Assembly (NCBI RefSeq): GCF_026421305.1
Contig: NZ_JAPJBQ010000003.1
Span: 1-64,000, forward strand
Length of the DNA stretch: 64,000 nt
From: Dyella silvae
GTDB taxonomy: Bacteria; Pseudomonadota; Gammaproteobacteria; Xanthomonadales; Rhodanobacteraceae
Reading direction: 5' to 3'
Made by a program: the position numbers and the translations under genes
Shown: piece after piece, positions 1 through 29,852 of the stretch
Numbering within the stretch: the stretch's first letter is position 1
Layout: every line of letters starts with the position of its first letter
The notes under the pieces: model-generated
The model's database searches: none
Told to the model about the DNA's origin: nothing
Seen by the model: the letters and a program-made list of their open reading frames with translations, nothing else

Positions 1-803
1 CGGGCGGGTTACGGGGTTTTTCGACAGGACATCCCTGTCCTGTCGAAAAACTGGCCGGCATCCATGCCGGCCACCCTGCGGGCTATTCCTCCACCCGCCC
101 GCCGCGCCATAGGGGCCCGGAGGTCAAAAGCCAAAGCCAAAGCCAAAGCCAAAGCCAAAGCCAAAGCCAAAGCCAAAGCCAAAGCCAAAGCCAAAGCCAA
201 AGCCAAAGCCAAAGCCAAAGCCAAAGCCAAAGCCAAAGCCAAAGCGGCGCGCGCCAGAAGCCACACCTGTGGTTTTCCCGTACTTATGGCCTCCTTGTAG
301 GAGCGCACTTGCGCGCGACAAGCCTGCGAAGCGGTGTCGACGTGATGCTGCGGTCGCGCACAAGTGCGCTCCTGCAGAAAGAACGCCAGACGAATGGTGA
401 CGCGATGTGCCGCGTGAGCGGCACGAGCCGTGTGCTTTTGATCTGCGGGGCCCCTGTGCGGCGGTGAGGGTTGGACGATCAGGCCCGCAGGGGGATCGGC
501 ATGGATGCCGATCCCTTTTCGTCAGGGCAGGAAGCCCTGTCGAAAAGCCCGGCCAACCCTCACGGACTTGCCGGGCTAACAGCCCGGCAAGCGCCAAGCG
601 GGGTGCTCTTTCTTTTGGTTACTTTTCTTTGAGCAAGCAAAGAAAAGTGACCCGGCGATCGGCAGATCGTCGGAAGCCCGCCGCAGGCGAGCACGGTCGC
701 GGCCGCGTCGAAAAGTGCAAAAGCGTAAAGCTGGAGAATAGAAAAGTTACCGCGAGCACCCACCCCTCACCCCAACCCTCTCCCCGGAGGGGAGAGGGAG
801 AAA
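1..803. repeat. Composite palindromic element, copy A (cut by window edge)
   Basis: This is a long imperfect inverted repeat with a simple-repeat core. The visible left arm (1-126) contains two hairpins: a 15-bp stem with a short loop (about 17-50) and a GGCATCCATGCC-centred stem (about 52-73). The core is a tandem AAAGCC array. The right arm (about 440-800) mirrors the left arm and continues outward through hairpins at about 502-525, 567-591 and 630-657 to a CTCTCCCCGGAGGGGAGAG palindrome. It matches copy B at 25152-26287 nearly base for base in the right arm. All open frames inside it (Ala-Lys, Ala-Leu or Gly-Phe repeats) are artefacts of the repeat. There is no transposase gene. It sits directly upstream of the flgB promoter. 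Confidence 0.85.
127..240. repeat. Tandem hexamer array, (AAAGCC)19
   Basis: Nineteen perfect head-to-tail copies of AAAGCC form the core of the palindromic element. The array reads as Lys-Ala repeats on one strand and Ala-Leu or Gly-Phe on the other, so it stays open in several frames, but no start site or coding context supports a protein. Being a multiple of three, length changes would not create stops. Such arrays are prone to slippage, so copy number probably varies between strains. Confidence 0.95.
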
Positions 804-962
804 AAAGCCGGTGCGCCCCGAGCGCCACAAAACACACTCCCTATCCCGCGTCAGGAAGCCGCTGCCACCAGCGTCGAAAAACCGACAGGCCACCCCGTTG
901 GCGCCCCGCCAACACCCCGCAAACCCAACAACCACGCGCCCTGCGAGCCCCTCGCAAAACCG

Positions 963-1861: not shown

Positions 1862-2533
1862 GTGTCCACTATTCCAGGCACCAGCAACAACACCACGACG
1901 AACACCAGTACGTCGAGCGCCAATGCGGCGCTGTCCAACACCATGACGCAGGCCGACTTTCTCAAGCTGATGACGGCCCAGCTCAAGGCGCAGGACCCCA
2001 CCAATCCCGTCGATAACTCGCAGTTCGTCTCGCAGATGGCGCAGTTCAGTCAGCTGTCGTCGACGCAGCAGCTGGATACCGACCTGCAGTCGCTGAGCAG
2101 CAATATCAATGCGGCGATGCAGACCTCGCAGGTGTTGAGTTCGTCGAATCTGGTCAATCGTCAGGTGATGGTGCCTTCGAACACGATGAGTTTCGACGGC
2201 ACCGACAGCATGCGTGGCGCGGTCAATGTCACAACAGCCACCAGCGTCACCGTGCAGGTGCTTGATGGCAACGGCAATGTCGTGCGCACCATGCCATTGG
2301 GTGCGCAAAGCGCAGGCCTTGCCCAGTTCAGCTGGGACGGCAAGGACGACAACGGCAACGTGGTGTCCGGCGGCAATTACACGTTGAAGGCAACCAGCGG
2401 CACCACGTCGCTCGACACCTATGTGGCGGGCACGGTGACTGGTGTGGGTTACGGCGGTAGTTCAACGGGAACTTACTTGCAGGTATCGGGCGTGGGCGGC
2501 GTGCCGCTCAACCAGGTGGCACAAATTCTGTAA
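1862..2533 (+). CDS. flgD: Flagellar hook assembly scaffold FlgD
   Basis: FlgD is the temporary cap that guides FlgE polymerisation and is lost when the hook is complete. The protein has 223 residues. A low-complexity Thr/Ser/Asn N-terminus is followed by the conserved DFLKLMTAQLKAQDPTNPVD block (about residues 33-52) and the Tudor/Ig-like C-terminal half containing FSWDGKDDNGN. The start is GTG, preceded by GGAAGG; no ATG is available near the conserved N-terminus. Confidence 0.96.
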   Translation: MSTIPGTSNNTTTNTSTSSANAALSNTMTQADFLKLMTAQLKAQDPTNPVDNSQFVSQMAQFSQLSSTQQLDTDLQSLSSNINAAMQTSQVLSSSNLVNRQVMVPSNTMSFDGTDSMRGAVNVTTATSVTVQVLDGNGNVVRTMPLGAQSAGLAQFSWDGKDDNGNVVSGGNYTLKATSGTTSLDTYVAGTVTGVGYGGSSTGTYLQVSGVGGVPLNQVAQIL

Positions 2534-2569
2534 ACGCTTCACGCGTTCACCTATCACGAGGAACCGAAC

Positions 2570-3787
2570 ATGGCACTCAATACGGCGCTCAGCGGCATCA
2601 ACGCAGCCCAGTCCGATCTCAACGTCATCGCCAACAACATCGCCAACGCCAACACCACCGGCTTCAAGGGTTCGCGTGCGGAGTTTGCCGACATCTACGC
2701 GGTGACCGGCCTCAATCTCAATTCCACTGCGGTGGGCAGCGGCGTGCGTCTGGATAAGGTGGCGCAGCAGTTCAGCCAGGGCGACATCCAGACCACCAAC
2801 AACAGCCTTGATCTCGCCATCAGCGGCAACGGGTTCTTCGCCGTCAACAACGGCAGCGGTGTGAATTACACGCGCGCCGGTGATTTCCAGAAGGACCCGA
2901 GCGGTTACGTCACCACGCCGGACGGCTCGCGTCTGCAGATCTATCCGCCGAACGGCGTGGGTGGCTTCGACACCAGCACGCTGAAGGATCTGAACCTGGT
3001 GACGGCGCAGAGTAACGCCACCGCGACCTCGCTGATCACCATGACCTCGAACCTGCCAGCCAGCGCGAGCGTGCCGGCCAATCCGTTCAGTACCAGCGAT
3101 TCCACCAGCTACAACGCCGCCGCACCGGTGACGGTGTACGACTCGCAGGGTGGTTCGCACCAGGCCACGATCTACTACGTGAAGACCGGTACCAATACCT
3201 GGAACGCGAATCTCTTCATCGACGGTCAGAACGCCGGCACGCAAGCGATGACCTTTAACGCCAACGGCAACCTCGCCACGCCGGCCAATGGTCAGCTCGC
3301 ATTCGGCGCTGTGAACCTGGCCAACGGTTCGTCGCCGATGACGGTATCGCTCAACGTCACCAACACCACGCAGTTCGGTACCGCGTACTCCGCCGGCACC
3401 ATCGCGCAGAACGGCTTCGAGGCCGGCACGTTGTCGAATATCGACATCGACAGCAAGGGCGTGGTCACCGCGTACTACTCCAATAACCAGAGCACGCAGA
3501 TTGGCCAGGTGGCGATTGCCAACTTCGCCAATGTGCAGGGCCTGCGTCAGATGGGCAACACCACCTGGAGTGCCAGCACGGATTCCGGCCCGGCAGTGAT
3601 GGGTACCGCCAGCTCAGGTCAGTTCGGCACGCTGCAGTCGGGCGCGCTGGAAAGCTCCAACACGGCCGATACCACCGCGCAGCTGGTGAACATGATCCAG
3701 GCGCAGCGCGACTACCAGGCCAACGCGCAGGTGTTGTCGACCGACAACACGCTGGCCTCGGCGCTGTTTAACGCTGTGTCGCGCTGA
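2570..3787 (+). CDS. flgE: Flagellar hook protein FlgE
   Basis: FlgE is the hook subunit (405 residues). The N-terminus has the axial signature IANNIANANTTGFKGSRAEF near residues 22-41. The variable D1/D2 middle is Ser/Thr/Asn rich, and the C-terminus ends in the coiled-coil segment with AQLVNMIQAQRDYQANAQVL. A GAGGAA ribosome site precedes the ATG. It follows flgD, as in most flagellar operons, and shares its axial helices with FlgF and FlgG downstream. Confidence 0.97.
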   Translation: MALNTALSGINAAQSDLNVIANNIANANTTGFKGSRAEFADIYAVTGLNLNSTAVGSGVRLDKVAQQFSQGDIQTTNNSLDLAISGNGFFAVNNGSGVNYTRAGDFQKDPSGYVTTPDGSRLQIYPPNGVGGFDTSTLKDLNLVTAQSNATATSLITMTSNLPASASVPANPFSTSDSTSYNAAAPVTVYDSQGGSHQATIYYVKTGTNTWNANLFIDGQNAGTQAMTFNANGNLATPANGQLAFGAVNLANGSSPMTVSLNVTNTTQFGTAYSAGTIAQNGFEAGTLSNIDIDSKGVVTAYYSNNQSTQIGQVAIANFANVQGLRQMGNTTWSASTDSGPAVMGTASSGQFGTLQSGALESSNTADTTAQLVNMIQAQRDYQANAQVLSTDNTLASALFNAVSR

Positions 3788-3796
3788 TAAGCCGCC

Positions 3797-4537
3797 ATGG
3801 ATCGTTCCGTCTACGTAGCGATGACCGGGGCAACGCAGATCATGCGTTCCCAGGAAGCGGTGAGCCACAACCTGGCCAACGCTTCCACGGTCGGCTTCAA
3901 GAGTCAGCTCTCCGCGTTTCAGAGCGTGCCGGTGCTGGGCGACGGCCATGCGGCCCGCATCAACGCGGTGGCGCAGGGTATCGGCCAGGGCAGCGGGCAG
4001 GGTTCGCCGATCAATACGGGCCGCTCACTGGATATCTCGGTGCGCGGCGCGGGTTTTATCGCCGTGCAGGCGCCGGACGGTTCAGAAGCGTATACGCGTG
4101 CAGGCGATCTGCAACTCACCGCCGATGGCGCACTGACCGACTCGCGTGGCAATCCGGTGATGGGCGGTTCCGGTCCCATCACCATTCCGCCGGCCACGGA
4201 TATCAGTGTCGGCTCCGACGGCACCATCTCCACGGTGCCGCAGGGGCAGGGGCCCAACTCGGTGTCGCAGATCGACCGCATCAAGCTGGTCAATCCCGAC
4301 GTGGCGCAGATGACGCAGAACGGCGACGGCCTGATGCACATGGCCGACGGCAGCACGGCAGCGATGGACGACACCGTCACCATCGCATCCGGCGAACTCG
4401 AAGGCAGCAACGTCAATCCGTCGGCCGAGCTGGTGAAGATGATCGCGCTTTCGCGCCAGTACGACATGCAGGTGAAGTCCATCAAGACCTCCGAGGACGA
4501 CGCCGATTCCAGCCTCAAGCTGATGCAGGCCAACTAA
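3797..4537 (+). CDS. flgF: Flagellar proximal rod protein FlgF
   Basis: FlgF is a rod subunit of 246 residues. It begins MDRSVYVAMTGATQIMRSQE, the usual FlgF N-terminus, followed by the VSHNLANASTVGFKSQ axial motif. The C-terminus has the paired helix SAELVKMIALSRQYDMQVK. Paralogous to FlgE and FlgG, it is distinguished from them by length and by its place between them. The gap to flgE is nine bases. Confidence 0.96.
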   Translation: MDRSVYVAMTGATQIMRSQEAVSHNLANASTVGFKSQLSAFQSVPVLGDGHAARINAVAQGIGQGSGQGSPINTGRSLDISVRGAGFIAVQAPDGSEAYTRAGDLQLTADGALTDSRGNPVMGGSGPITIPPATDISVGSDGTISTVPQGQGPNSVSQIDRIKLVNPDVAQMTQNGDGLMHMADGSTAAMDDTVTIASGELEGSNVNPSAELVKMIALSRQYDMQVKSIKTSEDDADSSLKLMQAN

Positions 4538-23864: not shown

Positions 23865-25103
23865 ATGACCGCTCCCGTTGCCCTGCCGGTGAACGCGGCG
23901 CCCGCGAGTGTGCCGGCCAACAACATGGCTGCCCATAGCGCTACTGGCAGCCCACGCACCGATTTCAAACAGCCGTTGCAGCAGGCCCGCCAACAACTCG
24001 CCCGGCAGTCGGCGCCCGCGCCCGCCGCATCACCGAAGGCCTCGCAGCCGGCCGCGCAGAACGGTGCTCAAAGCAGTGTGCAGAGCGACGTACAAAGCAC
24101 CAGTAACGGTAAGGGCGCCGACGACAAGCAAACGCAAGCGGAGGCCGCCGGGGCTGCCGCAGCCATGCTCGCCTTGCTGGGGCAAAGCATGCCGGCGTCT
24201 GCCGCGCCATCCGCCGCACCCGCAGCCTCAACCGCACAAAGCGATGGGGACGCTGCTTCCACGGCCACCATCGCCGCCACAGGTGCAGCGACGATGGCCG
24301 GTTTGCCGACGTCATCCGTCATGCCTGTTATCGCGCCCACCGACACGGCGGCACTGACCGGCACACAGAGCGGTGCGTCGACCGCTCCGCAGCCCGCCAG
24401 CAACTTCTCCAAGACGCTGGATGGCATCAAGGACAAGACCCTTTCGATCTCGTCACAGGGCGATGATGGCGACGCCGATGTTGCCGATACCGACACAACC
24501 GCGAGTACACGCGGCACGACGTCGGATGCTTCCGTGACAGCCGCCGTCCAGGCGCTGACCGGCTCAAGCCAGAACGACCACAACGATCCACTCGACGCGC
24601 TGCGCGCCGTGGCGACTCCGGTTGTGCCGCAGCAGGCACCGAATATGGTGCCGGCTACACCGGCCCCGCATGCGTTGACGATGCAATCCACGGTAGGCAC
24701 ACCGGCGTTCAGTCAGGAGCTCGGGCAGCAGGTGGCCTGGCTGGGTGGCCAGGACATCAAGGAAGCGCGCATTCGCCTGCATCCCGAAGACCTGGGTGAG
24801 CTCAACGTCAAGGTCAGCGTGAAGCAGGACCACGTCGACGTGAGCTTCATCGCGCAACACCCGCAGGCAGTGCATGCCGTGCAGCAGACGCTGAGCCAGC
24901 TTGATTCGATGCTTGCGCATCACGGGCTTTCGCTGGGGCAGGCGCAGGTGGGGCAGGGGAGTGGTGGGAATGGTTCGGCGCAGGCTGGCGGCTCGAACGC
25001 GGCTTCGCAGGGTGAGGGTGGTTTGGTCGAAGGTGTGGGTGAGCTGGTGTCGGCGGTGGCACCGGTGGTGAAGGCGGTGGGGTTGGTGGATATGTTTGTG
25101 TGA
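23865..25103 (+). CDS. fliK: Flagellar hook-length control protein FliK
   Basis: FliK measures hook length and switches export specificity through FlhB (412 residues). The long N-terminal region is Ala/Ser/Thr/Gln rich and disordered. The conserved C-terminal FliK domain (about residues 285-355) contains ARIRLHPEDLGELNVKVSV and a following MLAHHGLSLGQAQV. The tail is glycine rich. It is the last gene before the 1.1-kb repeat element, so the fliE transcript may end there. Confidence 0.92.
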   Translation: MTAPVALPVNAAPASVPANNMAAHSATGSPRTDFKQPLQQARQQLARQSAPAPAASPKASQPAAQNGAQSSVQSDVQSTSNGKGADDKQTQAEAAGAAAAMLALLGQSMPASAAPSAAPAASTAQSDGDAASTATIAATGAATMAGLPTSSVMPVIAPTDTAALTGTQSGASTAPQPASNFSKTLDGIKDKTLSISSQGDDGDADVADTDTTASTRGTTSDASVTAAVQALTGSSQNDHNDPLDALRAVATPVVPQQAPNMVPATPAPHALTMQSTVGTPAFSQELGQQVAWLGGQDIKEARIRLHPEDLGELNVKVSVKQDHVDVSFIAQHPQAVHAVQQTLSQLDSMLAHHGLSLGQAQVGQGSGGNGSAQAGGSNAASQGEGGLVEGVGELVSAVAPVVKAVGLVDMFV

Positions 25104-25151: not shown

Positions 25152-26287
25152 TGAGGCATTCACGCTCTTAGCTCCCTCTCCCCTCCGGGGAGAGGGTTGG
25201 GGTGAGGGGCGGGTGCTCGCGGTAGCGCTCATTCCCCTCACCGTCATCCCAGCGGAAGCTGGAAGCGCTTCACAACAGCCGAAGGCTGGTCATCCAGTGA
25301 CTTTCGCTCTTATGGACGGTGCGGCGACCTGGCTCGCCTGCGGCGGGCTTCCGAACCGCTGCCGCGGTCCGGGTCACTTCTCTTTGCGTGGCCAAAGAGA
25401 AGTAACCAAGAGAAAGGCCACCCCGATGGCGCGCCTTCCGGGCGAAGCCCGGAAGGTTCGCGGGCGGGTTACGGGGTTTTTCGACAGGGCCTCCTGCCCT
25501 GACGAAAAACTGGCCGGCATCCATGCCGGCCACCCTGCGGGCTGATCCTCCACCCGCCCGCCGCGTCATAGGGGCCCGGAGGTCAAGAGCGAAAGCCAGA
25601 GCCAAAGCCAAAGCCAAAGCCAAAGCCAAAGCCAAAGCCAAAGCCAAAGCCAAAGCCAAAGCCAAAGCCAAAGCCAAAGCCAAAGCCAAAGCCAAAGCCA
25701 AAGCCAAAGCGGCGCGCGACGCGCGCCAGAAGCAGCGCCCGTGGTTTCTCCGTGCCCATGGTTTCCGTGTAGGAGCGCACTTGTGCGCGACCACAGAAAA
25801 AGCCGATTGATGCAAGGCGATGCGATGTGCAGCGAAGCTGCACGAGCCGTGTGCTGTTGATCTGAGGGGCCCCTGTGCGGCGGTGAGGGTTGGACGATCA
25901 GGCCCGCAGGGGGATCGGCATGGATGCCGATCCCTTTTCGTCAGGGCAGGAGGCCCTGTCGAAAAGCCCGGCCAACCCTCACGGACTTGCCGGGCTATCA
26001 GCCCGGCAAGCGCCAAGCGGGGTGCTCTTTCTTTTGGTTACTTTTCTTTGAGCAAGCAAAGAAAAGTGACCCGGCGATCGGCAGATCGTCGGAAGCCCGC
26101 CGCAGGCGAGCCAGGGTGCCGAAACGCACACAAGAGCGAAAGTCGCTGGATGACCAGCCTTCGGCTGTTGTGAAGCGCTTCCAGCCTTCGCGGGGATGAC
26201 GGTGAGGGGAATCAACGGTGTCGCGAGCACCCGCCCCTCACCCCAGCCCTCTCCCCGGAGGGGAGAGGGAGCTAAGAGCGCGCCTCA
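25152..26287. repeat. Composite palindromic element, copy B (complete)
   Basis: This is a 1,136-bp imperfect palindrome. Ends TGAGGC/GCCTCA and CGCTCTTA/TAAGAGCG bound the outer arms (25163-25320 and 26125-26280), which contain the CCCTCTCC...GGAGAGGG and CGTCATCC modules. The inner arms (25321-25585 and about 25860-26122) are chains of hairpins in matching order: 25376-25403 with 26040-26067, 25434-25456 with 25986-26010, 25477-25509 with 25936-25965, and 25511-25532 with 25911-25934. Several differ between arms by paired changes that keep the stems. The core is an AAAGCC array. No transposase or target-site duplication is evident. Confidence 0.88.
25586..25705. repeat. Tandem hexamer array, AAAGCC
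   Basis: Seventeen perfect AAAGCC units (25604-25705) are preceded by three units of which two are degenerate (AGAGCG, AAAGCC, AGAGCC). It has the same unit and almost the same length as the array at 127-240, at the centre of the second copy of the element. Confidence 0.95.
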
Positions 26288-26521: not shown

Positions 26522-27022
26522 ATGGCTCAGAACGAGCAAGTAACCGAAACCTCGGCGCAGCCCGCCAAGAAGGGTTCGTCCAAGACCGTAATGTTCATGG
26601 GCGTGGCGATGCTGGCGCTCGCCGGCGCGTGCGCGTATTTGCTGCTGGGGCAGCGGGCGAATCACGGCAACGCGGCGGAAGAGCCCAAGGTCACGATGTC
26701 CAAGCAAGAGCTGTACGCCACGCTCGACCCGCCGTTCGTCGTCAACTTCAAAGACGATCAGTCCATGCGCTTCCTGCAGGTTGGCGTGAGCCTGATGTCG
26801 CATGACGCAGCAGCGCTGGCAGCCGCCAAGGATGCCGATCCGGTAATCCGTAATGCCCTCGTCATGCTGTTCAGCAGTCAGGACTACAGCATCCTCAGTG
26901 ACGCTGCAGGCAAGCAGAAACTGCAGGCTGAGGCGCTGGCCGCGGTGCAGAAGATCGTCGAGAAGCGTCTGGGCCGCCCCGGCGTTGAGGCGCTGTATTT
27001 CACCAGCTTCGTGATGCAGTAA
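26522..27022 (+). CDS. fliL: Flagellar basal body-associated protein FliL
   Basis: FliL is a single-pass inner-membrane protein that surrounds the stator and raises torque (166 residues). A TM segment lies at about residues 22-42 (TVMFMGVAMLALAGACAYLLLG). The periplasmic SPFH-like domain follows with the conserved LDPPFVVNF and the C-terminal LGRPGVEALYFTSFVMQ. Confidence 0.95.
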   Translation: MAQNEQVTETSAQPAKKGSSKTVMFMGVAMLALAGACAYLLLGQRANHGNAAEEPKVTMSKQELYATLDPPFVVNFKDDQSMRFLQVGVSLMSHDAAALAAAKDADPVIRNALVMLFSSQDYSILSDAAGKQKLQAEALAAVQKIVEKRLGRPGVEALYFTSFVMQ

Positions 27023-29546: not shown

Positions 29547-29852
29547 ACGCGGCGCCGCTGTTTTCTCCCTCTCCCCTCCGGGGCACGCGGGGAGCGGCCA
29601 TGGATGGCCGCGGCTTTGAGGAGCGAGGAGAGGGCCGGGGTGAGGGGCGGGTGCTTGCGAAAGCCTTTCATACCCGTCATCCCCGCGAAGGCGGGGATCC
29701 AGTGTCTTTCGCTTTTCCTGGGACGCACCGCAGCAAGTCGCTGGATCCCCGCCTTCGCGGGGATGACGGTGAGGGGCATCAGCCCTGTGGCAAGCACCCG
29801 CCCCTCACCCCAACCCTCTCCCCGAAGGGGAGAGGGAGCAAAGAGGCACGCC
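29547..29852. other. fliP-fliQ spacer holding a palindromic element
   Basis: This 306-base interval splits genes that are normally adjacent. Almost all of it is the mid-sized palindromic element (29565-29839). No promoter consensus was found here. Confidence 0.85.
29565..29839. repeat. Palindromic element, medium form
   Basis: Arms are built from the same modules as the outer arms of copies A and B. These are CTCCCTCTCCCC at each end, a GGTGAGGGGCGGGTGCTTGC segment, and an inner 28-bp perfect inverted repeat (29675-29702 with 29741-29768). The long inner arms and AAAGCC core of the large form are missing. The left arm has an extra insert of about 44 bases with its own palindrome GCGGCCAT-GG-ATGGCCGC (29594-29611), echoing the GGCATGGATGCC loop of the large copies. 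Confidence 0.85.

Follow-up and report, generated by a model that had tools for sequence, protein, structure and literature searches.

What kind of DNA is the 1.1-kb palindrome that interrupts a flagellar operon of Dyella silvae, and how could it have come to lie there? The window, i.e. the whole stretch of 64,000 nucleotides that was analyzed, carries this element between fliK (end at 25103) and fliL (start at 26522), a location that upholds the original prediction; both gene names derive from NCBIfam model matches below cut-off, and the FliL proteins most similar to this one come from Dyella. The predicted architecture, in which hairpin modules follow a set order within a layered palindrome, was confirmed by self-alignment and by folding. 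In a gapped alignment, arms 25163-25577 and 25867-26280 were identical in 350 of 411 aligned columns, and the local score of 200 compared with a maximum of 13 among 200 dinucleotide-preserving shuffles. The ungapped outer arms obtained by self-alignment (25163-25425 and 26018-26280) spanned 263 nt and were 87% complementary. Inner arms paired 25474-25508 with 25935-25969 (97%) and 25506-25542 with 25902-25938 (81%). In the predicted single-strand DNA fold, the outermost TGAGGC and GCCTCA were paired and the layers were nested, with a minimum free energy of -493.1 kcal/mol, a value that has no shuffle control at that length. Self-alignment and fold both placed local hairpins within each arm. 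Profiles were built from D. silvae copies with the left arm of the window's element as seed, and the following features were mapped.

25163..25222, + strand: left outer shell T (profile matches; motif compared with Table 1 of PMC4666352)
25174-25209: BoxC/triplex-type motif CCCTCTCCCC-TCC-GGGGAGAGGG-TTGGGGTGAGGGG within left T
25236..25313, + strand: left shell V, a CGTC-tagged REP half (CGTC-1 format according to PMC3733652), with a 27-nt insert that is missing from some other copies
25314..25369, + strand: left X segment of the inner element (self-alignment, profiles)
25370..25425, + strand: left C hairpin, GTCACTTCTCTTTG...CAAAGAGAAGTAAC (self-alignment, profiles)
25426..25473, + strand: H hairpin, present on a single arm and marking polarity (profiles)
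25474..25510, + strand: left D hairpin (self-alignment, profiles)
25510..25545, + strand: left E hairpin (self-alignment, profiles)
25546..25583, + strand: F segment, on the same arm as H (profiles)
25584..25866, no strand: variable core separating the aligned arms
25588..25710, + strand: AAAGCC hexamer array of about 20 copies
25769..25791, + strand: single GTAG-type REP (R), GTAGGAGCGCACTTGTGCGCGAC (class from Table 1 of PMC2817692)
25902..25938, - strand: right E hairpin (self-alignment, profiles)
25935..25969, - strand: right D hairpin (self-alignment, profiles)
25970..26017, - strand: H' region, a hairpin (CTTGCCGGGC...GCCCGGCAAG) unlike H (sequence reading; no H profile match)
26018..26074, - strand: right C hairpin (self-alignment, profiles)
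26075..26130, - strand: right X segment (profiles)
26131..26207, - strand: right shell V, a CGTC-tagged REP half (profiles)
26224..26280, - strand: right outer shell T, with a triplex-type motif at 26234-26269
29565..29838: smaller palindrome T-V-V'-T', located between fliP and fliQ and lacking the inner element; the mini-hairpin Q lies in its left T
1..807: right-hand part of another copy, truncated where the contig begins and including a separate AAAGCC array at 127-245

As had been foreseen, neither a transposase nor any known protein accounted for the element. Pfam returned a single sub-cut-off match (MgtE, over an AL-repeat stretch), and NCBIfam models did not match any of three ORFs compared with them. 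Rfam gave no match in the window at gathering scores. Between 24900 and 26700, no promoter-like site was detected, and six terminator-like sites were counted versus 3.0 (sd 1.8) in shuffles.

The draft genome of D. silvae (22 contigs) contained 183 pieces matching the interval. Besides the window copy, 39 places were fetched, some of which may represent the two ends of one copy split between contigs; 28 of them were internal to contigs, including two of half size (L066 and L069). The original prediction had staked itself on arms that align and on further copies elsewhere, and both were found: the element belongs to a multicopy family. Among the 29 copies scored (the 28 internal ones plus that of the window), C was present on both arms in 26, T on both sides in 19, and V on both sides in 12. 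Their cores were filled with hexamer arrays, GTAG-type REP pairs, or other sequence: a pair of R was seen in 9 of the 29 and tandem hexamers of at least five units in 6. The AAAGCC core that had been predicted is thus present here but is not a constant part of the family. A second core type (CGGTCGGGAAGCGTAGCGACC...) replaced the AAAGCC/REP core in L042, L045, L050, L051, L062, and L065. The 18 type-A copies compared with the window copy were 86-91% identical to it. For 52 of 54 D. silvae C-D arms the best match lay within the same genome, a figure favored by sampling because 54 of the 135 compared arms are those of D. silvae. Flanking genes were called with a simple purpose-made codon-usage caller at 41 places, yielding 13 convergent, 15 codirectional, and 1 divergent pair and 12 places without an assigned orientation; at the 29 places where a gene was called on either side, no copy overlapped a called gene extending beyond the element. 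GTAG and CGTC REPs lie mostly between convergent or codirectional genes (PMC3733652).

The profile search gave the module order T V X C H D E F - core - E D (H') C X V T. At the D. silvae places, neighboring T and V were separated by 15-18 nt in 36 of 39 pairs. H and F shared one arm in 43 two-armed elements (22 from D. silvae, 12 from other Dyella, and 9 from other genera) and lay on opposite arms in none. No element carried H on both arms (0 of 74 two-armed elements, 25 of which had no H match at all). Because this polarity is fixed, the inner palindrome was deduced to be old and to possess a left and a right side rather than to result from recent fold-back. Matches to the whole interval, some of them weak, occurred in 133 of 147 genomes of the family and in 25 of 26 genera. 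In one draw of 200 genomes of the order, a 224-base query running from C to F matched 39, including 24 of the 34 that belong to the family (11 of its 15 genera in that draw); a 176-base query matched 24 of 369 genomes of the class, mostly as short pieces. Other genera contributed 29 stretches fetched for C/D matches: 16 were without T or V and 13 had at least one of them, and genus g19 showed a T-V-X-C arrangement like that of Dyella (L112). The composite palindrome family is real, old, and gene-less.

Two stretches outside D. silvae held additional DNA. In another genus (L122, 2285-3100), two facing arms separated by 1.2 kb enclosed a 271-aa ORF. In L077 (about 2150-4430), a 2.26-kb interruption between C and H placed another element inside the inner palindrome; its ORFs read like an IS30-type transposase, and fragments were repeated as if misassembled.

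The original prediction knew of no described mobile-element class with such a plan. This view had to be revised for the parts of the element. A visual comparison with Table 1 of PMC4666352 (motif at 25174-25209) showed that the sequence of the outermost shell T agrees with the BoxC/triplex motif in almost every letter: CCCTCNCCCC-loop-GGGGAGAGGG is followed by a purine-rich putative third strand such as GGGGTGAGGGG. Shell V, read by eye in L195 against section 6 of PMC3733652, fits the CGTC-1 REP layout, with a CGTC tag, an 8-bp stem starting with AT, a 4-nt loop, a CCA tail, and head-to-head dimers; the window copy has the extra 27-nt insert. The core repeat R can be classed as a GTAG REP resembling the Xanthomonas axonopodis REP type (PMC2817692). 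In 4 of 8 sister-Dyella regions, a Y1_Tnp gene had an R on either side, and a single R was found in 1 of 12 Y1_Tnp regions of other genera; profile matches to T, X, C, D, E, or F were absent from all 20 Y1_Tnp regions examined. The claim is further countered by published REP dimers inserted in longer palindromes, one layer deep (PMC3733652, section 7). For the inner X-C-H-D-E-F palindrome and for nesting in several layers, we found no published description, the component repeats being known.

Smaller units, the mini-hairpins Q, Y, and Z, were seen inside T, C, V, and other hairpins. In 20 Dyella genomes, exact matches to the core of Z, a 25-nt mini-hairpin (TCCCACRGGGACTAGCTTCGCGTCG and a variant), numbered from 0 to 56 per genome; Z was sometimes tandem and often located within other hairpin repeats (L234-L263, L294-L333). 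Q had 29 exact matches in Dyella genome G319 and between 0 and 6 in each of the 19 others, and it occupied the same point of a T hairpin at 28 of the 30 sites listed (L264-L293; window 29600-29628). Targeting of hairpin apices by Z is weakly suggested.

Orthologous sites showed that the shells also occur separately and in other orders. The fliP-fliQ site of 18 species was scored by profile matches and reading by eye, several T or V being degenerate (copies in L070 and L082 on the right side and in L075 on the left side among them). Five species had no repeats (L074, L076, L077, L078, and L084), five had T-T' (L070, L071, L073, L080, and L086), four had T-V-V'-T' (the window, L075, L082, and L083), three had V-V' with at most one T (L072, L079, and L081), and one had T-V-X-C-D (L085). 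In three relatives the site was empty, stop and start codons overlapping. The tree of this site leaves gain versus loss undecided. At L031, where D. silvae carries V[inner element]V', the 1-kb element was present in none of nine relatives: one had V-V', five had GTAG/GTGG-REP pairs (by eye), and three had neither. REP-like sequence was located outside the C arms in L106 and L107 from another genus (by eye), whereas R lies inside in Dyella. V-V' was found within the core in L081, L134, and L210, and T within the core in L190, L202, and L206. As the wrapping order is variable, the shells are argued to be separate units.

Near-empty orthologous sites were present in a relative for four of six sites compared. 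They measured 21-73 bp versus about 1 kb in D. silvae and were found in 3 of 3 fetched relatives for L042, 1 of 1 for L052, 2 of 2 for L060, and 2 of 8 for L062; one of the two L060 sites carried a T-like hairpin. Differently built elements occupied the other six relatives at L062 and all three at L045. Target duplications, which the original prediction had proposed as a check, were sought at lengths of 3-9 bp in 36 end pairs and showed no excess over shuffled pairs (at best 5 of 36 at 3 bp; null 95th percentile, 6). The sequences on either side of L061 (contig C18, about 239592-240582) lie far apart in relatives, and a large element was present in five of the seven left-flank stretches fetched from relatives (L198, L200, L202, L206, and L210). 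Because of the distance between its flanks, this copy is taken to mark a rearrangement, the element being a probable breakpoint.

On balance, we lean toward the view that the fliK-fliL element is one copy of a non-autonomous, gene-less composite palindromic mobile element. An older polar palindrome (X-C-H-D-E-F...E-D-H'-C-X), known from many genera of the family, lies within the loop formed by the two halves of a CGTC-type REP dimer (V...V'). This dimer lies in turn within the loop of an inverted BoxC/triplex pair (T...T'), and the center of the inner palindrome is filled by GTAG-REP dimers, hexamer arrays, or other repeats. Each layer may have arisen when one palindrome inserted itself between another's arms. 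Because the junctions are near-constant and the flanks unrelated, we infer that the completed composite subsequently spread as one piece. An enzyme would presumably act on it in trans, and plausibly on single-stranded or cruciform DNA because no target duplication was seen.

A candidate enzyme was sought among RAYT-type proteins. PF01797 (Y1/RAYT-type) had no match in the D. silvae genome, with 5 of 14 controls positive, so that a cognate RAYT, expected if the whole composite were a REPIN or BIME, was not found there. In the family, 98 of 147 genomes had a match, 92 of them above cut-off. T repeats flanked a RAYT gene in none of 20 regions. SbcCD cuts long palindromes in Escherichia coli. SbcD (TIGR00619) was not found in the D. 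silvae genome; among 200 genomes of the order, 12 gave a match above the cut-off, all of them from outside the family, and within the family one genome matched below the cut-off. Long palindromes may thus be tolerated because SbcCD appears to be missing. This lack is widespread in the order; it would therefore at most permit such palindromes to persist and does not set carriers apart from other genomes. A more general proposal is that extragenic palindromes of the family, as whole dimers and as single hairpins, insert preferentially into the centers of others through a process that acts on cruciform or hairpin DNA, that loss of SbcCD permits this, and that long nested palindromes are so built, remodeled, and spread as gene-less composites. 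We regard it as speculative and rather doubtful.

Spread of a composite as a unit has to be weighed against other readings. It is also possible, if unlikely, that no composite moves and that intergenic hotspots take up BoxC motifs, CGTC REPs, GTAG REPs, and the inner palindrome separately and repeatedly. The species-specific combinations at fliK-fliL, fliP-fliQ, L062, and L045 are consistent with such hotspots, as is the occurrence of shells alone. However, the T-V spacing of 15-18 nt (36 of 39 pairs) recurs at many unrelated sites, and the D. silvae copies are most alike among themselves (52 of 54 arms); neither would readily be expected from independent assembly at each site.

We consider it distinctly improbable that the elements are not selfish and have been kept by selection for termination, gene insulation, or chromosome folding while spreading by recombination. 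Convergent gene pairs (13 of the 29 determined) with a single divergent one, a terminator-like hairpin with a T run ahead of the L031 element (by eye), and the C-to-F matches in 24 of the 34 genomes drawn from the family (11 of 15 genera) would suit such a role. Against it, several relatives have an orthologous site that is empty or holds something else, the fliK-fliL copy splits codirectional genes of a single operon, and scarcity in promoter regions is equally expected from purging of harmful insertions.

Ordinary MITEs, i.e. deletion derivatives of DDE-transposase insertion sequences whose parent would have ends matching GCKCTYTTAGCTCCCTCTCC, are a still poorer explanation, to which we give little credence. 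Terminal inverted repeats as in DDE-type MITEs, intergenic position, and lack of recognized coding capacity agree with it, but a target duplication of fixed length was not detected in the 36 end pairs. Moreover, no transposase-bearing element with the same ends was seen among the fetched loci, and the interruption in L077, IS30-like as judged from its ORFs, is a different element. An assembly artefact or chance inverted duplication can practically be dismissed: at least 11 of the 44 contig ends of the draft fall inside a copy, but copies with unrelated flanks lie inside contigs, the two arms differ by fixed features, and assembly error is unlikely because the single-contig Dyella genomes G102, G113, and G320 hold elements of the same plan.

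If the composite does move as a unit, CGTC REPs and BoxC motifs would have a way to spread with it. We know of no dedicated enzyme for BoxC motifs. For CGTC REPs, none has been reported (PMC3733652). The palindromes of D. silvae look able to spread without a gene of their own. At least two dozen palindromes of about 1 kb in a genome in which SbcD was not found constitute a natural test of long-palindrome tolerance. Three palindromes described separately so far, the BoxC/triplex motif, the CGTC REP, and the GTAG REP, here form concentric parts of one element.

Among known systems, GTAG and CGTC REPs with their dimers (PMC3733652) and REPINs are likewise small extragenic palindromes that often form head-to-head dimers. 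REP dimers are built as a single layer, whereas the Dyella element consists of concentric T, V, and inner palindrome, in some copies with R pairs in the core, and its inner palindrome, 0.5-0.7 kb long, is not a REP. The BoxC/triplex motif (PIT, TM) is intergenic, and five inverted pairs are reported from E. coli K-12; in the part of the source considered here (PMC4666352), it is a solitary or paired motif that does not bound any larger composite, nor is it found with mobile elements. The likeness of T to it is one of sequence, triplex formation being putative. REP doublets and BIMEs mobilized by RAYTs (PMC2817692) are also alternating palindromes without coding capacity, but the D. silvae genome has no Y1_Tnp gene match, and T, X, C, D, E, and F do not accompany the Y1_Tnp genes in the 20 regions. 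Insertion sequences that target REPs (PMC1525189) resemble the Dyella units as DNA inserting specifically into palindromic repeats; in contrast to them, the units that appear to have been inserted in Dyella are themselves palindromes without recognized genes.
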